Origin: a virus
Direction: 5' to 3' (one strand)
Virus record (IMG/VR): IMGVR_UViG_3300042507_001723
Span: 1 to 38,988 of that record
Length of the DNA: 38,988 nt
Shown here: piece by piece, positions 1 to 27,528 of the stretch
Position numbering within the stretch: position 1 is the first letter of the stretch
Layout: every line of letters starts with the position of its first letter
The notes under the pieces: model-generated
Told to the model about the DNA's origin: nothing
What the model saw: only the letters and a program-made list of their open reading frames with translations
Database searches by the model: none
Translations under genes and position numbers: made by a program

Positions 1-126
1 AGAAGTTGCTGCCAAGTTAGCCACTGAAATAGTTGATACAACTGCTTCTTTAGCAGAAGGTACTGTGTATAGAGTTGTTAGTGTAGTTGCAGATGGGTTT
101 GATTGCCCAAGAACTTTTTTAGCCAT
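1..126 (-). CDS. 5' fragment of small virion protein gene (runs off left edge)
   Basis: This is the N-terminal 42 codons of the gene that is complete at 38645-38971; the nucleotide sequence is identical over these 126 bases. The start is ATG at 126, with AAGGAG upstream. It lies directly downstream of the tail fibre gene ending at 143. In a circular or permuted molecule the late operon therefore continues from that gene into the genes at the right end of the window. It is a partial duplicate created by the window ends, not a second gene. Confidence 0.85.
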   Translation of the reverse strand, partial: MAKKVLGQSNPSATTLTTLYTVPSAKEAVVSTISVANLAATS

Positions 127-18688: not shown

Positions 18689-20557
18689 CTATGAGTAGTA
18701 TTCATTCCATTGGTCAGCAAAGGCTTCATCCAATTGGATTGAACCACGCTGTGCTTTTTGTGCTCTTGTTGCCCATCTGTTCTGACCATACTGGCCAATG
18801 CGTGTTGATTGTTGCATCAGTTCACGCACCCGAATGATTGCAAACCATAAGGCCATAACGCAGTCAGTCGGGTTCTTGGTATCTGGCTTCCAGGTAATCA
18901 ACTGTTGAACTAGAGACTTAAGTCCCTCGGAGCCTTCGTTAGAAGGCATCTCAATCAGGTTATTATCTTGGAAACGTCCATCACGGATAGAGCCGAATAG
19001 GCTCGCCATGGATGCAACACCAAAGGAAGTGTCCCATTTGTTCTTGCCAGTGAAGTGTGAGTTTAGCTGACAACCCCACTGAGCTAAATAGTTACGCAGG
19101 TCAGTATCCATAGCGTAGTATTTCTGGTGAGCGTTAATCTCAACTCGAAACTCTTGCGGATGGTACTTCTCTACCCACTCATGAATTAACGCTGTCTCCT
19201 TTTGGGGAGTAGGGTCAACCATGTTAATACAATCTAAAACGTAAACCTTACCGTCAGCGCGGTTGTAAGTAACTGCCACAAATGCTGAACGACCAGATAC
19301 GGCTGGGTCAAAACCAATAACCGTATAGGTAGACTCTAAATGTTTCGGGTGCCCTGGAGTATCTGGTTTAAGCGGTCCGCGCTTTCGCATACCGTTGACA
19401 CATCCTGCAACTGCTGTTGGCGAGAATATGCTGTCTTCTTGGACGTCTTCTTGCTGGTAGACCATAGCCCAGACAGATGGCGCAACTTCAGAGCGGCGCG
19501 TAAAGAGAGAGGGTCCATCCCATTTCGGATAAAGTCCATCATTGTTAACCTCGTCAATATCTCCTTCAGGCCTGTCAGTCCAGGGCCAAAGGGTTTTCCA
19601 GTTCTCAGGCTTCTCGTCAAACTCCAGCACGGCTGGCATTGAGAAATATGTAAAGGGGCTTTTGCCACCAGTCCACTGACCTGGGTCACGAATCATCTTA
19701 TATAAATCTATGGGCGCGACACGGGTTCCAACTACTAGAAGTTTACCGTGCCGCCCCAGGCGGGTGATAACTTCTTTCTGGAGCCACTCAATTTGCTTTT
19801 CCCACTCGTGGGCATTAGAGCCCATCACCACATCGTCTAGAATAATCAAATCGGCACGTGCGCCATAGATTTGAGAGCCAAAGCCTAAGGCTTGGACGGT
19901 TGGGTCCTTTTCGCCCGAATCGCGGCCAGTACCCAAGTATATCATATCAGCTGACCATTGAGTAGCGTCAGCCTTGAATCCACCATTTGGGCCGAAGGCC
20001 GTTTGTAGCTTCATGTAAGCTGGGTGGGAAAGTCTTGTCTTAATAGCCCCAAGAAACTTGCGGGCCATGCCTTGAGTTTTGGAGACAATAATTACTCGGG
20101 CATTAGGGTTTGTTACAATCTTGTAAACTACATAGTTGGTCGTGATGACCGTAGACTTGGCGTGCTCAGGTGGCACGTTAATCAGAATACGGTTCTTGGC
20201 CCCTGGCTCGTAGGTCATAGAAGGATGGAGCCAACGAGGCTCACGTTCTTCAATCATATCAAACCAGTCAAGGTGATGTTCAAAAAGCTGGGTGTCTAGG
20301 AACTGCTGACAGAAGTCAGGAAAGCTTATGTTTTTCAGGTCAGTTAGGTCTGCCTTTACGCCTTTGCCTTCTAGGCGGGCCTTATCGGCCTTCTCCTTGA
20401 ACTCTTCATCAACCATAGACCATTGACGGAAGGTTGTGTCGTTGCGTCCTACAGCAGCCATAGCGGCCGTGATGGTGGCACCGTTAGAGAGTAGCACTAG
20501 AACCTTGGCCTGGGCCTCATCCTTAGGTACCGACTGTACCCCTGGTTTACGTCCCAT
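18689..20557 (-). CDS. terL: terminase large subunit with N-terminal HTH, 622 aa
   Basis: The ATPase domain has a Walker-A-like PPEHAKST (about 129-136), VIIVSKT, and a Walker B LIILDD (about 237-242) with VVGTRVA as coupling motif. The nuclease domain begins at VIGFDPAVSG (about 420), and a NPTDCVMALWFA helix near the end resembles the last RNase H-like element. Residues 14-65 (AQAKVLVLLSNGATITAAMAAVGRND) form a helix-turn-helix like those of small terminases. No separate small-terminase gene was identified, so this domain may take over site recognition. The start has AGGGGA; it is the first gene of the late operon. Confidence 0.9.
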   Translation of the reverse strand: MGRKPGVQSVPKDEAQAKVLVLLSNGATITAAMAAVGRNDTTFRQWSMVDEEFKEKADKARLEGKGVKADLTDLKNISFPDFCQQFLDTQLFEHHLDWFDMIEEREPRWLHPSMTYEPGAKNRILINVPPEHAKSTVITTNYVVYKIVTNPNARVIIVSKTQGMARKFLGAIKTRLSHPAYMKLQTAFGPNGGFKADATQWSADMIYLGTGRDSGEKDPTVQALGFGSQIYGARADLIILDDVVMGSNAHEWEKQIEWLQKEVITRLGRHGKLLVVGTRVAPIDLYKMIRDPGQWTGGKSPFTYFSMPAVLEFDEKPENWKTLWPWTDRPEGDIDEVNNDGLYPKWDGPSLFTRRSEVAPSVWAMVYQQEDVQEDSIFSPTAVAGCVNGMRKRGPLKPDTPGHPKHLESTYTVIGFDPAVSGRSAFVAVTYNRADGKVYVLDCINMVDPTPQKETALIHEWVEKYHPQEFRVEINAHQKYYAMDTDLRNYLAQWGCQLNSHFTGKNKWDTSFGVASMASLFGSIRDGRFQDNNLIEMPSNEGSEGLKSLVQQLITWKPDTKNPTDCVMALWFAIIRVRELMQQSTRIGQYGQNRWATRAQKAQRGSIQLDEAFADQWNEYYS

Positions 20558-20645
20558 AACATCCCCTAAAAACGCCTTATTAACGGTCAGTTAAAACGGG
20601 CATAACTATCCCATTATATATATTATATATACATTATGTTATATA

Positions 20646-20679
20646 GGAGCCGCTCTCCCGAAGGGACGGAGCGAGCTCC
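20646..20679 (-). other. long hairpin in the terL leader
   Basis: GGAGC-CGCTC-TCCC pairs with GGGA-(CG)-GAGCG-(A)-GCTCC, giving 14 base pairs with three bulged bases and a GAA loop (UUC on the terL strand). No U-run follows on either strand. It lies about 90 bases upstream of the terL start, so it would fall in the late leader RNA and could control late message stability or translation. Confidence 0.6.
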
Positions 20680-20681
20680 GA

Positions 20682-20718
20682 ATATGTAATACTTTACATA
20701 TATAGATAACCTGTTCAA
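20682..20718 (-). promoter_or_regulatory. inverted repeat overlapping a weak late-promoter candidate
   Basis: ATATGTAA-TACT-TTACATAT is a perfect 8-bp inverted repeat (20682-20701). On the minus strand TTGAAC (20713-20718) and TAAAGT (20691-20696) are spaced by 16 bases and could be -35 and -10 elements, with the repeat covering the -10. Both elements are poor, so the late promoter may lie elsewhere or use the phage sigma-like factor. An operator role is inferred from geometry only. Confidence 0.3.
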
Positions 20719-20778
20719 ATCGTAAAACCGAACACTTTTTTCTAATATATTTTTATATATATTATATAGCCCCCCTTA

Positions 20779-20804
20779 TATATATAAAAGCCCTGGTCAG
20801 GGCT
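20779..20804 (-). terminator. terminator-like hairpin in leftward orientation
   Basis: AGCCCT-GGTC-AGGGCT (20789-20804) forms a 6-bp GC-rich stem that, read on the minus strand, is followed by TTTTATATATA. No leftward gene ends here. It could stop antisense transcription entering terL from the early side, or act as an attenuator in the terL leader. Confidence 0.5.
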
Positions 20805-20878
20805 GATATAACAGAAATTTTATTGGGGATAGTATATGTGTGTGGCGCGACATAATTTAATAACCCTACCCTCAAATG

Positions 20879-20902
20879 TCGACAAATTGACATATCGACA
20901 AA
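20879..20902. repeat. TCGACAAA direct repeat, 16-bp period
   Basis: TCGACAAA occurs at 20879-20886 and again at 20895-20902 with eight bases between, directly before the 11-bp array. It may be an extra protein-binding site in the origin region. Confidence 0.5.
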
Positions 20903-20915
20903 GAGATTTATCTAC

Positions 20916-21039
20916 CTGAGAATTATCTTAAAGATTCCTGAGAGTTTCCTGAGTATATCCTGTGGATTCTCACCTTAATAAACCCTGAAAGATTCCTGAG
21001 AATAAACTGAGAACTAACTGAGGGTTTGCTGAGGATAGA
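20916..21039. repeat. 11-bp-periodic CTGAG iteron array (probable origin)
   Basis: CTGAG or a one-base variant begins at 20916, 20938, 20949, 20960 (CTGTG), 20985 (CTGAA), 20996, 21007, 21018 and 21029. Steps are 22, 11, 11, 25, 11, 11, 11 and 11, so two blocks are each phased at 11 bp, about one helical turn. The 14-mer AAAGATTCCTGAGA occurs twice (20930 and 20988). Two 7/9 matches to the DnaA box (TTATCTACC at 20908, TGTGGATTC at 20961) lie in the block. This phasing is what replication iterons or a cooperative binding array would show. Confidence 0.8.
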
Positions 21040-21055
21040 ACTATCTCCCCGACCA

Positions 21056-21193
21056 TGTCCGAATTGTACCATTTGCCCCATTAGTTCTATTTGCCCCAGT
21101 ATATTCCTTATGTCTTATTTGTCCGTTATGTCCACTTACTCGGTGTGACCTATCTCACATGGTCAATGTCCGATATGTCCGAATTGTCCTCTT
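21056..21193. repeat. 9-bp-periodic TGTCC array
   Basis: Nine-base units of consensus TGTCCnATT begin at 21056 (TGTCCGAAT), 21065, 21074, 21083 (weak), 21092, 21111, 21120 and 21129. After a 38-bp interruption they resume at 21167, 21176 and 21185. One unit around 21101 is 10 bp and poorly matched. TGTCCGAAT is identical at both ends of the array. The last unit touches the -35 box of the first rightward promoter, so the array could be a multi-site operator as well as part of the origin. Confidence 0.75.
21144..21159. promoter_or_regulatory. perfect Crp/GlxR-type binding site
   Basis: TGTGA-CCTATC-TCACA is an exact match to the Crp consensus TGTGA-N6-TCACA and to the TGTGAnnTAnnTCACA form known for actinobacterial GlxR/Crp. 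It sits in the gap that interrupts the 9-bp array, with its right half 33 bp upstream of the first rightward -35 box. It would let a host cAMP-responsive regulator act on early transcription or on origin use; no phage Crp homologue is encoded. Confidence 0.6.
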
Positions 21194-21220
21194 GACAAGC
21201 GTGGCTTCATGGTGTAGTCT
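21192..21220 (+). promoter_or_regulatory. rightward promoter candidate P1
   Basis: TTGACA (21192-21197), 17-base spacer, TAGTCT (21215-21220). The -35 is perfect and the -10 is weak. The -35 overlaps the end of the 9-bp array, so it may be regulated by whatever binds there. An inverted repeat CTTGTAA/TTACAAG (21225-21231 and 21245-21251) follows in the transcript. Confidence 0.4.
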
Positions 21221-21250
21221 TTCCCTTGTAATCGCGAAAGTGACTTACAA

Positions 21251-21307
21251 GCACGACACGCCGTCAAGCGTGGGTACTTGACAAGGTGGAAAGTATTTTG
21301 GTACTAT
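21251..21307 (+). promoter_or_regulatory. rightward promoter P2 with upstream hairpin block
   Basis: TTGACA (21278-21283), 18-base spacer ending GG, TACTAT (21302-21307). Upstream, the 14-mer GCACGACACGCCGT (21251-21264) is repeated exactly at the same 27-bp distance before promoter P4 and includes half of a stem (CACGC facing GCGTG). The first downstream gene starts at 21530, leaving a long structured leader. Confidence 0.65.
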
Positions 21308-21313
21308 CTGCCA

Positions 21314-21447
21314 GTAAGCGAAAGACCTCGCCTAGTGTGAGAGCGTCACCGCTTACACGATACAATTCCATAAGCGTAAGGTTTAGTTAGGCTAGACTTT
21401 AGTTAGTAGCAGACCCTAGGGGTTGGCTAAACTACCCTACCTAAACC
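21314..21447 (+). ncRNA. candidate structured early leader or small RNA
   Basis: Starting about where P2 transcription would begin, GTAAGCG (21314) pairs with CGCTTAC (21350-21356). Then GGTTTAGTTAGG (21380-21391) pairs with CCTACCTAAACC (21436-21447) with one mismatch, and TTTAGTTAG is repeated inside the second stem. No open reading frame of note is present. The RNA could be a stand-alone small RNA or the leader of the first early message; no match to a known riboswitch was recognised. Confidence 0.4.
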
Positions 21448-21498
21448 GACACGCGGAATTAGCACAACTTGACAAGCACTAAACAAGCATGGTAGTAT
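21447..21498 (+). promoter_or_regulatory. rightward promoter P3 for first early gene
   Basis: TTGACA (21469-21474), 18-base spacer ending GG, TAGTAT (21493-21498). CGACACGC, a part of the block seen before P2 and P4, begins 22 bp upstream of the -35. The start codon at 21530 follows with GAAAGGA as ribosome binding site, so P3 is well placed as its direct promoter. Confidence 0.65.
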
Positions 21499-21529
21499 TC
21501 GCATAACAACTTAACGAAAGGATAGTGAC

Positions 21530-21823
21530 ATGAGTTACAACCCCTACGGGGGGTTAGGTAGCATAGTAGTTACACCACGCAAGCCATTGGCAAGCGAACG
21601 CCGACTAGGCTCTCGCGGTGCTAGGCTTACCGACACCAAGCATGGCAAGGCGATTCGCCGTAGCCGTAATGGCAAGGTGACCTCGAACAAGCGTGTTGAG
21701 CGTATCCTACCTGCCCTAGATGAGGCTACACAAGAACGCCTAGCGCGTGAATTGTTACTAGCCGAACGCGAACGCGAGTTCCGCGCAACCCTGCCTAGCG
21801 TACACATAGACGCTAACGATTAG
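21530..21823 (+). CDS. basic early protein, 97 aa
   Basis: First gene of the rightward early region. The protein is rich in Arg (LASERRLGSRGARL, GKAIRRSRNGKVTSNKR) with a predicted helix of Glu/Arg/Leu (ERLARELLLAEREREF, about 69-84). The family is not recognised. The charge pattern fits a nucleic acid- or RNA polymerase-binding protein of the kind phages make immediately after infection. The start is fixed by GAAAGGA and promoter P3. A tRNA-like element begins 8 bases after the stop. Confidence 0.65.
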   Translation: MSYNPYGGLGSIVVTPRKPLASERRLGSRGARLTDTKHGKAIRRSRNGKVTSNKRVERILPALDEATQERLARELLLAEREREFRATLPSVHIDAND

Positions 21824-21830
21824 TAGTAAC

Positions 21831-21877
21831 GCCACGCCCGAACGCGGGGGTGACTAGGTTCGAGCCCTAGCGTGGCA
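21831..21877 (+). ncRNA. 47-nt tRNA-like element (acceptor + T arm, no D arm)
   Basis: GCCACG pairs with CGTGGC (6-bp acceptor, discriminator A follows). CCCG-AACG-CGGG makes a 4-bp mini-arm, and CTAGG-TTCGAGC-CCTAG is a canonical T arm with the TTCRA loop. A D arm and a normal anticodon arm are absent, so this is not a translating tRNA. The coaxial acceptor/T-arm helix is the substrate form recognised by RNase P and RNase Z. Its place right after a stop codon suggests transcript processing; a decayed tRNA or attachment-site relic is the alternative. Confidence 0.55.
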
Positions 21878-21931
21878 CGACACGCCGTAAGGTGTGCTGG
21901 CTTGACATGGTGTCAAGTCTTATGGTAAGAT
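21875..21931 (+). promoter_or_regulatory. rightward promoter P4 with palindromic operator
   Basis: TTGACA (21902-21907), 18-base spacer ending GG, TAAGAT (21926-21931). The -35 lies in a perfect palindrome CTTGACA-TGG-TGTCAAG (21901-21917). GCACGACACGCCGT (21875-21888) sits 27 bp upstream of the -35, as in P2, and forms a stem with GGTGTG. The start codon at 21943 is only about 5 bases past the expected transcription start, so the message should be nearly leaderless. Confidence 0.65.
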
Positions 21932-21942
21932 AGGGGTACTAA

Positions 21943-22065
21943 ATGGCTCTCGTTAGAGATGTCGTCAAGGTGTCTATCGCGGAACTAGGGTTTAACAAGG
22001 TTGAGCCTACGAGTAACGCCGACTGGCAAATTGTGAACAACTACCTATTAGAGAGGTGCGTGTGA
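21943..22065 (+). CDS. small early protein, 40 aa
   Basis: It reads MALVRDVVKVSIAELGFNKV and ends ...NNYLLERCV. The family is not recognised; it is a short amphipathic protein. It is supported by the strong promoter just upstream and by the next gene starting one base after its stop. The GGGG before the ATG lies close to or before the transcription start, so translation probably begins on a leaderless or near-leaderless message. Confidence 0.5.
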   Translation: MALVRDVVKVSIAELGFNKVEPTSNADWQIVNNYLLERCV

Positions 22066-22066
22066 T

Positions 22067-22207
22067 ATGACACTATCAGCGGGCGACTTGTTCGCCGTAA
22101 TGATAGCACTATCAGGTGCTAACCTAGTTCTAATAATCGCCATGCGTAGAGTCTATGTCTTAGAACGCAGACTACGCCGTTATGAGGGCTACTATGACGC
22201 CCGATAA
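22067..22207 (+). CDS. small membrane protein, 46 aa
   Basis: An N-terminal hydrophobic segment (about 8-26, LFAVMIALSGANLVLIIAM) is followed by an Arg-rich tail (RRVYVLERRLRRYEGYYDAR), the pattern of a single-pass inner membrane protein with its tail in the cytoplasm. The start follows the previous stop after one base, and the 3' end overlaps the next gene. Function is unknown; superinfection exclusion or control of a host membrane complex are possibilities. Confidence 0.5.
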   Translation: MTLSAGDLFAVMIALSGANLVLIIAMRRVYVLERRLRRYEGYYDAR

Positions 22208-22379
22208 CCTACTATTAAACCTCACACCAAGCGAGGTTCAGACTATACGCTTAGCCTTGCGGTTACAGCAAGATAGTCACAAGCGCAACGATTTTAAGGC
22301 GTTAGAGTCTGCCGTAATGAACTTACGGGATAAGATAACCAACGCCATGCTAGAACAACACACCTTGACATTGGCTTAA
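22194..22379 (+). CDS. small early protein, 61 aa
   Basis: ATG at 22194 is preferred because GAGGG lies five bases upstream; an in-frame ATG at 22182 would add four residues. The protein is helical (NLTPSEVQTIRLALRLQQD, then KALESAVMNLRDKITNAM). The family is not recognised. It overlaps the end of the membrane protein gene in another frame, and its 3' end contains the -35 box of the promoter for the amidoligase gene. Confidence 0.55.
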   Translation: MTPDNLLLNLTPSEVQTIRLALRLQQDSHKRNDFKALESAVMNLRDKITNAMLEQHTLTLA

Positions 22380-22393
22380 TGACATGGTACACT
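22365..22393 (+). promoter_or_regulatory. rightward promoter P5 for amidoligase operon
   Basis: TTGACA (22365-22370), 17-base spacer ending ATGG, TACACT (22388-22393). It shares the perfect -35 and the GG just before the -10 with P2-P4. It lies across the stop of the 61-residue gene and 32 bp before the amidoligase ATG, leaving room for the GGGGGTGAAAG ribosome binding site. Confidence 0.55.
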
Positions 22394-22424
22394 ACAACTA
22401 CAAGAACACGAACGGGGGTGAAAG

Positions 22425-23726
22425 ATGAAAGAGAACGAGGTCGAGTGTGTAAGTTGCGACAGTATCCTAGATACTACGAACGATACCTACTTTACCACGC
22501 ATAGTGGCGACTCTTACTGCGGTGATTGTGGCGGTAAGTGTAGTGATTGCGGTGAGGTTGACCACCTAGATGAGTTGCGATACTCTGAGAGTTTGGGAGA
22601 ACACTTATGTACCGATTGCTCGTTTAGTTGCGAGCGTTGTGACGAGTACCACCCTCAACGCAGTATCCACCATGTAGAGAACGACTACTACTGCGAGAGT
22701 TGCTACGAGAATCGCACTTTCTATTGTGAAAGTTGCGACTCAAGTTATCCCGACCACTACGATAGTTATGGTGTCCAAGATACCACCTATTGCGAGAGTT
22801 GCTACGAGAGCGAGTGCTACTATTGTGATGATTGTAGCGAGGCGTATCGTAATGACGATAGATGTGAGTGTGAGCAGGTAGATGATGACCGCACTTGCCG
22901 TTGTCGTAGTAGATTTATCCACGACTACAACTGTAAGCCCGCACCTGAGTTCCATGGTATTAGCAAGCATGGCTTGTTCATGGGCTTTGAGTTAGAGTTA
23001 GAACTACCACGCACAGTTCATGGTGAGGTCGAGCGTGCCAGCGAGTACGCAAGCCAGCAACTAGCAGGTGTTGCCATGCTCAAGCATGACGGCTCACTTC
23101 ATAGTGGCTTCGAGATTGTGACCCAACCTCATACGCACCTAGAGTATCGAGAGAACTCCAAGGTTCTATGGGATACTATCAACGAACTACGCACCAAGCA
23201 CACCGCTAGGTCGTGGGATACAGATACTTGTGGGCTTCATGTCCATGTGAGTAGAGCAGGGTTTAGTAGTGGCGCACACCAGCACCGCTTCATGGCTCTC
23301 ATCTACAAGAACGCACCAGAGATGATGAAGTTCGCTGGTCGCAAGACTAGGTTCGCTAGGTTTAATGATGTCTATTCCTTTGATGAGTACGACCGACCTG
23401 TCTTTAGCCTCAAGCATAAGTTAGAGGGCTATCAGGGTGAGCGTTACTCTGCTATCAACACCAATAATCGTGACACGCTAGAACTTAGGTTCTTTCGTGG
23501 TACTATGAACCCAAGTGGTGTGCTATCCGCACTCGACTTAGTTCAGGCGAGTGTAGAATACACTCGACACCTAACCCTATCTGATGTCAAGATAGGTGCG
23601 CTATCATGGACATGGTTCTATGATTATGTAGAGCAGAACAACGGGCTCTATCCCGACCTATACCAACGCATGAGCAAGGTCGCCAGTATAAATAGTATCA
23701 AACAACTAGAGAGGATAAACGCCTAG
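22425..23726 (+). CDS. zinc-ribbon amidoligase (COOH-NH2 ligase), 433 aa
   Basis: Residues 8-170 hold about ten CxxC pairs (CVSC, CGDC, CSDC, CTDC, CERC, CESC...), a tandem array of zinc ribbons. Residues 187-360 carry the motifs of the putative amidoligase family (glutamine synthetase/GCS fold): GFELELE (187-193), KHDGSL (220-225), GFEIVTQPH (228-236), CGLHVHVS (269-276), RYSAINTN (340-347) and ELRFFRGT (353-360), supplying acidic and His metal/ATP ligands. The enzyme should join a carboxyl and an amine at ATP cost, in the cytoplasm. The substrate is unknown; peptidoglycan peptides or a protein recognised by the ribbons are candidates. The stop overlaps the next start, which encodes an ammonia-releasing partner. 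Confidence 0.8.
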   Translation: MKENEVECVSCDSILDTTNDTYFTTHSGDSYCGDCGGKCSDCGEVDHLDELRYSESLGEHLCTDCSFSCERCDEYHPQRSIHHVENDYYCESCYENRTFYCESCDSSYPDHYDSYGVQDTTYCESCYESECYYCDDCSEAYRNDDRCECEQVDDDRTCRCRSRFIHDYNCKPAPEFHGISKHGLFMGFELELELPRTVHGEVERASEYASQQLAGVAMLKHDGSLHSGFEIVTQPHTHLEYRENSKVLWDTINELRTKHTARSWDTDTCGLHVHVSRAGFSSGAHQHRFMALIYKNAPEMMKFAGRKTRFARFNDVYSFDEYDRPVFSLKHKLEGYQGERYSAINTNNRDTLELRFFRGTMNPSGVLSALDLVQASVEYTRHLTLSDVKIGALSWTWFYDYVEQNNGLYPDLYQRMSKVASINSIKQLERINA

Positions 23727-24544
23727 TGTGTCTGCTCGTAGTGTGCTCGCCCAACTCAACACCTAATCGTGATGAGTTACACGCTGGTGCTTGTAACAAT
23801 CCGCATGGCTTTGGCTTTGCGATTGTCGCAGGTGACAAGATTATATCTGAGCGTGGCATGTCTGCCCGCAAGGTGATAGATAGGTTCTTAGAATTACGCA
23901 AGCAATACCCTGAAGGGTACGCCATGTGGCACGCTCGATACGCCACGCATGGTGTAAAGAACGAGCAGAATTGTCACCCGTTCCAAGTGGGCGGTAGTGA
24001 CTTGACATACCTTGCGCACAATGGTATACTAGATGTACCAATTCCGCATGGTGACAAGCGTTCCGACACTCGCATACTGGCAGAGGACACGCTACCTAGA
24101 ATAGGTGGTGTGTCTGCGCTAGATGATGATGTGGTCTGGACAATGGTATCTAGGTGGGCTAGTGGTAGCAAGATTGCTATCATTACGCTCGACCCTAGTG
24201 CTAAGGAAACTATGTACCTAGTCAATGAGAGTCTAGGTTCATGGGATAATGAGGGTGTGTGGTGGAGTAACCAAAACCACAAGCCCAAACCCGCAGTATC
24301 GTACCATACCACCCATACCTACCACTACCTATCAGATGATACAGTAGAGGAAGTGTATACGCCCACGCTAGATGAGTGTATCTATTGTCACTCGCTAGTA
24401 GATTTCGAGGAGAACCCGTACTATTGTGACTTCTGCCAAACTTGTTACGATTGCGACTCAATCCTCACCGATTGTATGTGTTATGTTCCAAGTAAGTTAC
24501 GCTCCACTCGGAGTCTAGCTGATTTCTATGACTACCAGCACTAA
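23726..24544 (+). CDS. class II glutamine amidotransferase with C-terminal zinc ribbon, 272 aa
   Basis: The GTG start puts Cys at position 2, the nucleophile of class II (Ntn) glutamine amidotransferases after Met removal. Further motifs are NPHGFGFA (25-32), HARYATHG (69-76), NCHPF (82-86), LAHNG (96-100, oxyanion-hole Asn/Gly) and SDTRIL (113-118). The last 60 residues hold eight Cys (218, 221, 234, 237, 240, 243, 250, 252), forming zinc ribbons like those of the neighbouring ligase. It would release ammonia from glutamine for the ligase. The start overlaps the ligase stop (TAGTG), so the two are made together. Confidence 0.85.
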   Translation: MCLLVVCSPNSTPNRDELHAGACNNPHGFGFAIVAGDKIISERGMSARKVIDRFLELRKQYPEGYAMWHARYATHGVKNEQNCHPFQVGGSDLTYLAHNGILDVPIPHGDKRSDTRILAEDTLPRIGGVSALDDDVVWTMVSRWASGSKIAIITLDPSAKETMYLVNESLGSWDNEGVWWSNQNHKPKPAVSYHTTHTYHYLSDDTVEEVYTPTLDECIYCHSLVDFEENPYYCDFCQTCYDCDSILTDCMCYVPSKLRSTRSLADFYDYQH

Positions 24545-24548
24545 GATT

Positions 24549-24578
24549 CTGTAAGTAGATTGCTTACAGTTTATTTAT
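24549..24578 (+). terminator. intrinsic terminator after amidoligase operon
   Basis: CTGTAAG-TAGATTG-CTTACAG forms a perfect 7-bp stem followed by TTTATTTAT, five bases after the amidotransferase stop. It closes the amidoligase/amidotransferase unit and should reduce read-through into the following small genes. Confidence 0.75.
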
Positions 24579-24590
24579 CGAGAGGTATAT

Positions 24591-24863
24591 ATGTCCACCA
24601 ACGCAACTATCCTTGGCTTAGCCGAGGAACTTCGACTCATCGCTGATGAGATTTCTTACAACGCTTTCGATACTACAAGCGAGTATCACAAGCGTGGCAC
24701 TATCATCAAAGCCTTGCCCGAGGAACAGCAAGACCGCTTTAATCCACAGTCACTATGGGTATCGTTGGGCGACGGTACTTACAAGCATCTCAATGGTAAG
24801 AAGGGGTTGGTAACAACTCACTCTCGCCTCGCTGATGTAACCTCGGTAGTATTCGAGGCATAG
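24591..24863 (+). CDS. hypothetical early protein, 90 aa
   Basis: Not recognised. An N-terminal helix (ILGLAEELRLIADEISYNAF, about 7-26) is followed by a mixed region with SLWVSLGDGTYKHLNGKK and a short final strand. GAGAGG precedes the ATG. It lies just after the terminator, so it needs its own promoter or read-through. Confidence 0.5.
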   Translation: MSTNATILGLAEELRLIADEISYNAFDTTSEYHKRGTIIKALPEEQQDRFNPQSLWVSLGDGTYKHLNGKKGLVTTHSRLADVTSVVFEA

Positions 24864-24865
24864 TC

Positions 24866-24901
24866 AAGTGTCCTGAGCATGACAATAAACTGCTCACACT
24901 T
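24866..24901 (+). other. hairpin between two small early genes
   Basis: AAGTGT-CCT-GAGCA pairs with TGCTC-ACACTT around an 11-base loop, giving 11 base pairs with a 3-base bulge. No T-run follows, so it is more likely an RNA processing or stability element than a terminator. Confidence 0.45.
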
Positions 24902-24924
24902 ACACTTAACAGAGAGGGTAGATA

Positions 24925-25116
24925 ATGAGTACAGTAACAGTACAAGGATTTGAGTACACTAATGAACAGCCACCTATTGGATTCGTCACGCTAACTACAG
25001 TAGACAACGACCGCATACTATACGGCGTGTTTACCAGTATTCAGGAAGCAACAGCGTTCGGTAGCAAGTTGGTCAATGCTACTGTCATACCAATCTACAC
25101 ACCAGTACTACACTAA
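24925..25116 (+). CDS. hypothetical early protein, 63 aa
   Basis: Not recognised. It looks beta-rich (VTVQGFEYTNEQ, IGFVTLTTVDNDRILYGVF) with one helix (QEATAFGSKLVNA). GAGAGGG lies upstream of the ATG. It is followed after 11 bases by the WhiB gene and probably shares its message. Confidence 0.5.
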   Translation: MSTVTVQGFEYTNEQPPIGFVTLTTVDNDRILYGVFTSIQEATAFGSKLVNATVIPIYTPVLH

Positions 25117-25127
25117 GGGGAGATGAC

Positions 25128-25460
25128 ATGAGTTATGAACTACAAGGTTTATGTACGGAGCACGACGACCCAGACCTATGGTTCGCTGATGTAGCAGAAC
25201 CCACTAGAGATACAGGTAAGTTTACTATCAAGGAGAAGCAAGCGATAGTCAACAACGCCATTGTTGCGCTATCCATTTGCGGTAAGTGCGATGTCAAGAC
25301 AGAGTGTCTAGCCGAGGGCATGAAGCCTGAGAACCTAGAGCATGGAATTTGGGGTGGTACTATGTCGGGAGAACGAATACTCCTAGCAGGTATCGCAACA
25401 AATAGGGAAGATAGAAAGCAACGGATAGCCTTTGCTCATAGAGTAAGGGTTAGCCAATGA
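25128..25460 (+). CDS. WhiB-family iron-sulfur regulator, 110 aa
   Basis: The four cluster cysteines of WhiB proteins are present in the usual order: Cys9, then Cys51-x2-Cys54-x5-Cys60, followed by the family turn GIWGG (73-77) and a basic C-terminus (REDRKQR...HRVRV). WhiB proteins bind a [4Fe-4S] cluster and interact with the principal sigma factor region 4 and DNA. The family is confined to Actinobacteria and their phages. A phage copy may redirect host transcription or mimic a host WhiB. GGGGAG precedes the ATG; the stop overlaps the next start (ATGA). Confidence 0.85.
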   Translation: MSYELQGLCTEHDDPDLWFADVAEPTRDTGKFTIKEKQAIVNNAIVALSICGKCDVKTECLAEGMKPENLEHGIWGGTMSGERILLAGIATNREDRKQRIAFAHRVRVSQ

Positions 25461-25849
25461 AGCAGGTATACTTCCTAGTCCTTATCTTTATCATGCTAGT
25501 ATTGTTTGCCCCATCTACAGGACAACCACAATCAAACGAAACGATTGTCGCTCGTAGTTGGGTGAAAGCAGACAGTAAAGCATACGCGAGAGATAAGCTA
25601 AGCGACTGGAAAGATAACCAATGGTCATGCCTTAGTAAGTTGTGGGGTAGGGAGTCGGCTTGGGAAGCGACCGCTTACAATCCTGTCAAAGTTATGGGAA
25701 AGAACGCTGGCGGGATACCACAATTACTAGGGCTTGACCCTGCTTTACCTGCTACAATTCAGATAGAGCGAGGTTTAGATTATATTTATTACAGATACTT
25801 GACACCTTGTCAAGCATGGTCACACTTTACTAGGAAGGGTTGGTACTAA
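25457..25849 (+). CDS. exported Rpf/lytic transglycosylase-like muralytic enzyme, 130 aa
   Basis: An N-terminal hydrophobic segment (3-18, QVYFLVLIFIMLVLFA) serves as a signal peptide or membrane anchor. The domain that follows has WSCLSKLWGRESAWEATAYN (probable catalytic Glu66), AGGIPQLLGL, QIERGLDYIYYRY and TPCQAWSHF...KGWY. This is the lysozyme-like fold order seen in actinobacterial transglycosylase/resuscitation factor domains. It should cleave peptidoglycan glycan strands outside the membrane. It is coupled to WhiB (ATGA) rather than placed in the lysis cassette, so wall remodelling early in infection is plausible. Confidence 0.7.
   Translation: MKQVYFLVLIFIMLVLFAPSTGQPQSNETIVARSWVKADSKAYARDKLSDWKDNQWSCLSKLWGRESAWEATAYNPVKVMGKNAGGIPQLLGLDPALPATIQIERGLDYIYYRYLTPCQAWSHFTRKGWY
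25798..25814. promoter_or_regulatory. CTTGACA-N3-TGTCAAG palindrome inside a gene
   Basis: CTTGACA-CCT-TGTCAAG is a perfect palindrome of the same arms and spacing as the one at promoter P4 (21901-21917). Here it lies within the transglycosylase coding region, over codons for a conserved-looking TPCQAW segment, so it may be coincidental. If real it would be a second operator for the same regulator. Confidence 0.3.
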
Positions 25850-26067
25850 TGAACGGCAGAGATACTGAGAGAGATGTAGCAGTACGTTGTAGTAGTTGCT
25901 ACAAGCCTATCAGGGGTAACGCTAAGGCGATTGCTCACAAGTTTAGGTTCAATGCTATACCAAAGTACCTATACTTCCACGATACAGCGAGAGAGTGCGC
26001 TGATGCCGAGGATACGCATATGATTATGACTAAGAACCATGATGTGCGAGGTACTAAACTTGCCTAA
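25849..26067 (+). CDS. small Cys/His protein, 72 aa
   Basis: The ATG at 25849 overlaps the stop of the transglycosylase gene (TAATG). One CSSC pair plus a later REC cysteine and several His could bind zinc. The rest is basic in the middle (AIAHKFRFNAIPKYLYFH). The family is not recognised. Its 3' end overlaps the next gene by 29 bases in another frame. Confidence 0.5.
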   Translation: MNGRDTERDVAVRCSSCYKPIRGNAKAIAHKFRFNAIPKYLYFHDTARECADAEDTHMIMTKNHDVRGTKLA

Positions 26068-26287
26068 AGATATCAACGAACTCAAGCCAGACTATACTAG
26101 GTCAATGGACATACGCGGTACACCTACTAAGTCATGCCCTTGTGGTTGTGACATATGGAACTTGAAGGTTATCTTTGATGATGATGGTGAGATTGGTATG
26201 TACTTCCTCGACATGGAGTGTGCTGAGTGTGGTACACTAGCGACAGCACCAACACCTATCGATACGGAGGAAGAATATTATGACTGA
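26039..26287 (+). CDS. zinc-ribbon protein, 82 aa
   Basis: CPCGC (about 33-37) and CAEC (about 60-63) flank a beta-hairpin region (IWNLKVIFDDDGEIGMYFLDME), the layout of a small zinc ribbon. A double ATG begins inside the end of the previous gene. It could be a nucleic acid- or RNA polymerase-binding adaptor; no closer assignment is possible. Confidence 0.55.
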   Translation: MMCEVLNLPKDINELKPDYTRSMDIRGTPTKSCPCGCDIWNLKVIFDDDGEIGMYFLDMECAECGTLATAPTPIDTEEEYYD

Positions 26288-26441
26288 GTTCTTACATGAA
26301 GTGGTAGCTAAGCGTGATGAGCAAAGCCTCTGGAGTATAATAGAAAGAGTTCGACCAGCACAACCAAGTGAAGAGGCATGTGAAAGATTAGTCCAATGGC
26401 TAATAGACCAAGATAGAGAGGAAGATAATGCCAACGTATGA
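26280..26441 (+). CDS. small acidic helical protein, 53 aa
   Basis: It reads MTEFLHEVVAKRDEQSLWSI with a helical remainder and an acidic end. GGAGG lies eight bases upstream, and the start overlaps the end of the 82-residue gene. The 3' end overlaps the next ATG region in another frame. The family is unknown; support comes from the strong ribosome binding site and tight packing. Confidence 0.5.
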   Translation: MTEFLHEVVAKRDEQSLWSIIERVRPAQPSEEACERLVQWLIDQDREEDNANV

Positions 26442-26598
26442 GTACGAGTGCCCAGGTGAGGGCAAAGTAATCGAGTTGTCCTTACCTTTTGACCATGAGC
26501 GACCCGCATGCGTGACATGTGGTGCGCCTATGGAACGGGTGTATACAGCACCAGCAGTAAAGTTTAATGGTTCAGGTTTCTATTCAACGGGAGGATAA
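26428..26598 (+). CDS. FmdB-like zinc-ribbon protein, 56 aa
   Basis: It opens MPTYEYECPG, has a CVTCGAPMERVYTAPAV centre and ends KFNGSGFYSTGG. This is the order of the FmdB-family regulatory zinc ribbon (MPTYEY..C, CxxC.., V.F.GSGFY). The first CxxC is reduced to a single Cys here. Members are short and their role is poorly defined; regulation by protein or nucleic acid contact is assumed. GAGGAAG precedes the ATG, inside the previous gene. Confidence 0.7.
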   Translation: MPTYEYECPGEGKVIELSLPFDHERPACVTCGAPMERVYTAPAVKFNGSGFYSTGG

Positions 26599-26599
26599 T

Positions 26600-26821
26600 A
26601 TGTGGTTAGAGTTCTATAGATGTATGCTATGTAGCACAGAAGAAACTATCGAGCGTGAAGATGATTGGGATTTCGAAACAAGTAGTGTCGAGTGTTCTAA
26701 TTGTGAGTGGTATATGGACAGGACAGGTGATAATTGGGGTCAACTTGAAGATGAGTTGTTCGCTGATTATCCTGAGGACTTATGGGTTGACCCGATGGAA
26801 GAGGAGATAATCTATGAGTAG
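26600..26821 (+). CDS. acidic CxxC protein, 73 aa
   Basis: The ATG at 26600 is preached by GGGAGG, two bases after the FmdB-like stop; a longer reading from 26567 is not favoured. CMLC (8-11) and CSNC (about 32-35) can form one zinc site. The C-terminal half is very acidic with many Trp and Asp (WGQLEDELFADYPEDLWVDP), a DNA-mimic-like composition. The family is unknown. Confidence 0.55.
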   Translation: MWLEFYRCMLCSTEETIEREDDWDFETSSVECSNCEWYMDRTGDNWGQLEDELFADYPEDLWVDPMEEEIIYE

Positions 26822-26918
26822 AGCTTTACAGATAACACAGTATATCTTTACCATTGTTGCTTTGATATACTGTGCCATCGCCTCTACGATTGCTCTGGTG
26901 TATCTTCTTGGTCACTAA
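26814..26918 (+). CDS. single-pass membrane micropeptide, 34 aa
   Basis: MSRALQITQYIFTIVALIYC followed by AIASTIALVYLLGH is essentially one transmembrane helix. GGAG lies upstream and the ATG overlaps the previous gene's end. Its 3' end overlaps the 3' end of the convergent sigma-like gene by 35 bases. It is the last rightward gene of the early region; the role is unknown. Confidence 0.45.
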   Translation: MSRALQITQYIFTIVALIYCAIASTIALVYLLGH

Positions 26919-27528
26919 CCTTATCAACGTACGGCTTGAAGCCACCAAGTTTGTACACCATGCGTTTGATGGCACGCTTATGACGCATACGAACAGCATC
27001 ATCTGTGCCTAAATCAAGTGCGTTAGCTATCTCCTTGAAATCAAGGGACTCTGCGTGGCGGAGGAATAGTAACCTTCTATCCTCTTTGTTAATCTTCCAA
27101 TACGCAGAGTCTATTTCAAGCATTAACACCTGTAGATTCCCACCTTCTGATGGTGCGCTTGGTCTACCAGTCCTACCCAAGTCTAACTTATGGGTAGCAG
27201 CAAACTCTCCACGCAATACAGCAGGTAGTAAAGCCTCAATTACTTCAGGCTCATAGTAATACAAGTCAGATGTGTCATAGCCGAGTGACTTGGCTTTCCA
27301 TCGCTGACAATAATCCAATGCCTCGTTACGTAACGAACGATACAATAAATTCTTAGTGTCCTTATGCCCGATGGCTTCCCACTCATCTAGTTTATTAGGG
27401 TGGTGTGCGAACCACTCGTATAGTGTTTGCTTTATATCATATAGTTCAACCATGTCAAACTTTTTATGGTACTCACTAGCAACTTTAGTAATTAAATAAT
27501 CCCAAGGTTCAATTCTTGACCAGTCCAC
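26884..27528 (-). CDS. sigma-70-like transcription factor, 214 aa
   Basis: Residues about 146-195 (INKEDRRLLFLRHAESLDFKE, IANALDLGTDDAVRMRHKRAI) form a sigma region 4-type helix-turn-helix. The N-terminal 90 residues are helical (VELYDIKQTLYEWFAHHPN) and could be a diverged region 2, without a clear -10-binding motif. The start is GTG, with AAGAAGG upstream. It is the last gene of the leftward replication unit, so it would accumulate after early genes and could direct late transcription from terL. Confidence 0.65.
   Translation of the reverse strand: MDWSRIEPWDYLITKVASEYHKKFDMVELYDIKQTLYEWFAHHPNKLDEWEAIGHKDTKNLLYRSLRNEALDYCQRWKAKSLGYDTSDLYYYEPEVIEALLPAVLRGEFAATHKLDLGRTGRPSAPSEGGNLQVLMLEIDSAYWKINKEDRRLLFLRHAESLDFKEIANALDLGTDDAVRMRHKRAIKRMVYKLGGFKPYVDKVSDQEDTPEQS

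Follow-up and report, generated by a model that had tools for sequence, protein, structure and literature searches.

The window, i.e., the whole 38988-base stretch of DNA analysed here (virus record IMGVR_UViG_3300042507_001723), carries an amidoligase gene and, directly downstream, a class II glutamine amidotransferase gene. The pair is situated between the terminase gene and a WhiB transcription factor gene, on the strand opposite to the structural genes (Table 1). The two genes overlap by a single base, the G common to the TAG stop of the amidoligase and the GTG start of the amidotransferase, which confirms the TAGTG coupling described in the initial annotation.

Table 1. Coordinates of the amidoligase–amidotransferase pair, its predicted elements and neighbouring genes in the window.
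Feature	Position	Strand	Basis or remark
Terminase gene (TerL)	18689-20557	-	Plus-strand gene run comes next
Promoter-like TTGACA-N17-TACACT, TG ahead of -10	22365..22393	+	10/12 matches
GGGGGTG ribosome-binding-like sequence	22414..22420	+	Motif recurs ahead of homologous starts
Amidoligase gene, 433 aa, ATG start, stop codon included	22425..23726	+	ORF, PF12224, fold
LIM-like zinc array at the N-terminus, made of CxxC modules, aa 8-149	22446..22871	+	Regular spacing; weak LIM matches
Catalytic GCS/GS-like domain, about aa 168-420	22926..23684	+	Invariant residues, YbdK structural match
Class II glutamine amidotransferase gene, 272 aa, GTG start, MCLLV...	23726..24544	+	ORF, profiles, GlmS fold
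Ntn glutaminase domain, Cys2 to about aa 183	23729..24274	+	C2, HxR, HNG invariant; SDT near-invariant; GlmS alignment
Amidotransferase C-terminal Cys cluster, C218-C252	24377..24481	+	Cys conservation
Terminator-like hairpin, then T-rich tail	24549..24569	+	Window and nearest relatives only
WhiB transcription factor gene	25128-25460	+	PF02467, 38.9 bits
Transglycosylase-like gene	25457-25849	+	PHROGs match; next after WhiB
Sigma-factor-like gene	26884-27528	-	phrog_354, 2.7e-12; also in cultured Planktophila phages

WhiB is a hallmark of actinophages, and the window is taken to come from a freshwater actinobacterial phage. The nearest cultured relatives found are the Planktophila phages LanE43AprE7 and LanE43AprF5 (PMC10202952), and this relatedness, together with the WhiB gene, suggests that the host belongs to the Nanopelagicales or a similar group and is probably a relative of Planktophila. 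The amidoligase–amidotransferase pair was searched for in both cultured phages and is absent from them, so it is an accessory component. The slot between the terminase and WhiB genes (20557-25128) is hypervariable among related phages, and in the pair-less relatives L267, L268, L282, L307, L308 and L332 it is filled by other small ORFs. In L307 and L308, this slot contains a SprT-like ORF, below threshold. A small plus-strand ORF of the window (26567-26821) resembles Lar restriction alleviation proteins, with a score below threshold.

A promoter and a terminator belonging to the pair itself had been proposed. The promoter finds support in the homologous loci, as 48 of 111 of them have a TTGACA-N17-TATACT-type site at most 130 bp ahead of the ligase gene, compared with a background of 5.5%. 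The terminator is more tentative: the hairpin is present in the window, but its conservation does not extend beyond the nearest relatives, with 3 of 105 homologous loci carrying one against a background of 1.9%. The region also contains a series of plus-strand promoter-like TTGACA-N17/18-TAnnnT sites with TG before the -10 element (21278, 21469, 21902 and 22365), several of which stand just ahead of small ORFs; in total, 22 promoter-like sites were observed versus 11.3 expected.

In a Pfam profile search, the amidoligase matched PF12224 (Amidoligase_2) with 27.1 bits (cut-off 22), and the same family was matched by 32 of 33 amidoligase homologues. Residues G187, E189, E191, D222, S224, G228, E230, H272, H274 and R306 are invariant among the homologues. 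An AlphaFold model built on an alignment of 28 phage homologues (mean pLDDT 82.4) and compared over residues 180-433 matched YbdK (Z 12.7, 224 residues, rmsd 4.0), plant glutamate-cysteine ligase (Z 12.1), glutamine synthetases (Z about 11-12) and Dop (Z 10.8). The prediction of a YbdK/GCS/glutamine-synthetase fold is supported by these results; the GCS-type amidoligase initially proposed from sequence motifs is thus recovered by profile, invariant residues and structure prediction alike.

The N-terminal part of the ligase, ahead of the catalytic domain, contains ten CxxC motifs when overlapping ones are counted, as the initial annotation had estimated, or about five non-overlapping two-pair modules. 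Their spacing, CxxC-(16..20)-CxxC-(3..7)-CxxC over about 145 residues, is regular across homologues; the cysteines are mostly invariant in the freshwater clade, and the number of modules varies. The spacing is similar to that of the LIM consensus CxxC-x16..23-HxxC-x2-CxxC-x16..21-Cxx(C/H/D), but with Cys in place of His and linkers of 3-7 residues. Among solved structures, the best profile matches of the array are tandem LIM domains, although the match is weak (PINCH LIM, E 4e-4); Foldseek likewise gave weak matches to the LIM domains of LMO2 and Isl1, and none of the 33 amidoligase homologues matched a LIM family in Pfam. The array appears to resemble tandem LIM domains more closely than plain zinc ribbons, and we describe it as LIM-like rather than as a proven LIM array. 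Of the earlier label "zinc ribbon", zinc-binding-type CxxC modules remain, while the ribbon type gives way to the LIM-like description. In more distant comparisons, the array shows a dN about 1.2-2 times as high as the catalytic domain does, with the cysteines kept. Such fast change with retained cysteines may be expected of a part that reads a target, or may reflect relaxed constraint; by analogy, the array could serve in docking.

The downstream protein scored 25.2 bits against GATase_6, just under the cut-off of 27, with the related L177 protein reaching 51.4; it matched phrog_25883 over residues 1-255 (4.8e-42), and its profile matches also include GATase_4 and GlmS/PurF. The N-terminal Cys and the HARYATHG and LAHNG motifs pointed out previously are all present. 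Within 29 amidotransferase homologues, C2, H69, R71, T74, G76, H98, N99, G100 and S181 are invariant, and Cys directly follows the start Met (MC) in every one; HMM alignment placed HxRxATHG and HNG onto the corresponding motifs of GlmS 1xff (E 2e-10). The AlphaFold model, based on an alignment of 22 phage homologues (mean pLDDT 76.8), matched the GlmS glutaminase domain (Z 14.3, 176 residues, rmsd 3.7), EgtC (Z 13.8) and PurF (Z 13.4), which supports a predicted GlmS-type class II Ntn glutaminase fold. Judged from their conserved residues, both the ligase and the amidotransferase look catalytically intact. The C-terminal zinc ribbons ascribed to the amidotransferase correspond to a cluster of seven cysteines (C218, C221, C234, C237, C240, C243 and C252) that is invariant in 22 freshwater homologues; among the homologues examined, the cluster is seen in the actinophage branch, and several distant ones lack it.

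To assess the coupling of the two genes, 160 loci (80 viral and 80 from bacterial genomes) were located by the amidoligase alone, and the amidotransferase was detected in 156 of them. It lies nearly always directly downstream, mostly with a small overlap or a gap of up to about 35 bp; large negative intergenic distances are an artefact of mechanically extended ORF starts. Among the remaining four loci, inspection by eye revealed an amidotransferase in L222 and none in L203 and L250, and L243 stops at the contig edge. A C. difficile phage ligase that lacks the zinc modules also lacks an amidotransferase partner. In a TerL survey independent of the pair, in which contigs with at least 6 kb visible on the right flank (upstream) were counted, both genes were present in 17 of 23 contigs, neither in 6, and a single one in none. 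Pairwise distances of the ligase and the amidotransferase correlate with r = 0.92 over 85 pairs (permutation maximum 0.11), although any two linked genes would be expected to show such a correlation. Both genes are under purifying selection, with median dN/dS values of 0.20 (ligase) and 0.11 (amidotransferase), and homologues down to about 20-30% identity retain the motif residues and their order; the motifs are therefore not a chance resemblance. Taken together, the locus counts, the TerL survey, the distances and the dN/dS values identify the pair, at the sequence level, as a single heritable, selected unit, and the genes are conserved together in related phages; their transcription as one unit is supported as well.

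Carriers include actinophages, phages of Methylophilales, one Acinetobacter phage and bacterial contigs that also contain recombinases. Serine recombinases are located nearby in 36 of 77 bacterial loci, and some genomes contain several copies of the pair; in Oscillospiraceae and relatives (L215, L226 and similar loci), DUF3846 or DUF960 genes are often found upstream. These associations point to mobility, not to the target. Neighbouring genes were also considered as a clue to the target in viral loci and discarded, since WhiB, the transglycosylase-like gene and TerL merely track phage-family synteny. Two apparent ligase–amidotransferase fusions were likewise rejected as evidence of a complex, since they are products of deletion or frameshift: in L070 2446-4026, both the Cys of the amidotransferase and the C-terminus of the ligase are missing and the zinc modules are out of frame, and L244 5173-7218 is frameshifted when compared with L240, a near-identical relative. 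Neither protein matched the PADLOC profiles of known anti-phage defence systems at E 0.01.

The pairing itself has precedents. In Marvin-group mycobacteriophages, which infect M. smegmatis, gp105 and gp106 (annotated as glutamine amidotransferase domain proteins) are adjacent and in the same order as in the window, with about 30% and 36% identity and Cys clusters on both proteins; the Marvin-group ligase has fewer CxxC motifs and a longer C-terminal tail. A BFVD structure search retrieved A0A6J7X5D3, an "Amidoligase enzyme" of an uncultured Caudovirales phage known as a deposited predicted protein (49% identity over 408 aligned columns). The OM43 phages MEP401 and MEP402 carry an amidoligase (PF12224) and a GATase (PF13522) as an overlapping two-gene unit like that of the window, but their host is Gram-negative, their ligase has only two CxxC motifs, and their amidotransferase has none. 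The putative peptidoglycan modification module of LUZ24-like phages and phiEco32 shares the Amidoligase_2 and class II GATase and is extended by ATP-grasp, COOH-NH2 ligase and GGCT genes, which were not recognised around the window pair. For phiEco32, Iyer et al. 2009 published the pairing and proposed wall modification against superinfection, and the 2012 Marvin paper adopted this idea (both as cited in PMC10580990); the peptidoglycan-modification prediction is also cited for the larger module of LUZ24-like phages (PMC11945000). The pair and the wall/superinfection proposal are thus already published, and the window adds a well-supported further member. No identified target of such a pair was found in the literature accessible to our search.

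We give about an even chance to the following reading: the pair forms one glutamine-dependent amidating complex that is driven by its own promoter from a hypervariable slot and that docks a macromolecule, probably a protein, to amidate one of its carboxylates. On family knowledge, the amidotransferase would split glutamine with its Cys2 nucleophile and hand the ammonia to the ligase, whose GCS/GS-fold domain would activate the carboxylate with ATP and yield a primary amide, the product that follows from this chemistry. The LIM-like array and the Cys cluster of actinophage amidotransferases might dock the target, join the subunits, or both. A macromolecule appears the most likely target, and a host (or phage) protein likelier than the wall. 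The promoter, the orientation opposite to the structural genes and the variable accessory slot would be most consistent with a role in host takeover or counter-defence.

The cell wall is nevertheless the published candidate. Peptidoglycan stem peptides or precursors would then be amidated by the pair at a free carboxylate, and the cell would be protected from lysins of competing phages or closed to superinfection. Such a function has been predicted for phiEco32 (as cited in PMC10580990) and for LUZ24-like modules (PMC11945000). Glutamine-dependent amidation of wall carboxylates is established biochemistry, performed by MurT-GatD and AsnB. If the wall is the target, MurT-GatD, in which a ligase and a glutaminase together produce a primary amide, offers a functional likeness; MurT is of the Mur-ligase type and GatD is a class I amidotransferase, so their folds are unrelated to the class II Ntn and GS-like subunits of the window pair. 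The ATP-grasp and GGCT/AIG2 partners of the LUZ24 module were sought among ten ORFs at 21530-27528 with Pfam and PHROGs, and neither was seen. Three considerations, none of them decisive, favour a protein over the wall. Firstly, the Marvin-group carriers infect M. smegmatis, in whose wall D-Glu is already amidated by the essential MurT-GatD, and AsnB amidation is also described for mycobacteria (PMC10484409). Secondly, carriers extend from actinophages to phages of Gram-negatives and bacterial contigs with site-specific recombinases. Thirdly, a multi-module zinc array is unusual for a small, soluble wall precursor, which has no obvious need of it. Overall, we regard wall amidation as unlikely, though ahead of the other alternatives.

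Less probable still is a cycle of conjugation and trimming, in which the ligase adds an amino acid or amine (e.g., gamma-glutamyl) and the amidotransferase-like protein removes it as an amidohydrolase. EgtA and EgtC act in this manner in ergothioneine synthesis, where ligation is followed by removal. The ligase resembles the gamma-glutamyl ligases YbdK and GCL, and the top structural matches of the amidotransferase include EgtC (Z 13.8, tied with GlmS), but by profile the amidotransferase matches GATase_6/GATase_4 and GlmS/PurF. The sequence data are compatible with either activity. Auxiliary metabolism, i.e., amidation of a small metabolite or assistance to nitrogen assimilation during infection, is slightly less credible again. 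A metabolic role was proposed for Phage-ZRK32, which carries amidoligase, GATase, glutathione synthase-like and GGCT genes (PMC10945688); against it, the zinc array of the ligase suggests a large partner, and no further metabolic gene was recognised with Pfam and PHROGs in the ten ORFs around the window pair. Modification of nucleic acid, with the array binding DNA or RNA and the pair amidating a carboxylated base, seems very improbable: zinc modules are often nucleic-acid binders, and in MEP401 genes for primase, helicase and polymerase follow a short way downstream of the pair, but the window pair is away from replication genes, and no base-carboxylating enzyme was recognised beside it.

Within the preferred reading of a protein-amidating complex, a bolder version can be proposed, which we put forward as speculation and hold to be rather unlikely: the pair may be a retargetable machine whose fast-evolving LIM-like array picks host defence or regulatory proteins, so that their Glu/Asp side chains or C-termini would be amidated and the proteins disabled.

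Phages and mobile elements commonly carry amidoligase–amidotransferase pairs. The branch represented by the window combines a compact two-gene unit and all-or-nothing inheritance with an unusual zinc array that is usable as bait for the target, and both the array and this mode of inheritance make it well suited to the search for that target. Its identification would put a phage-function prediction of 2009 to the test and could uncover a new modification that serves counter-defence or host takeover.
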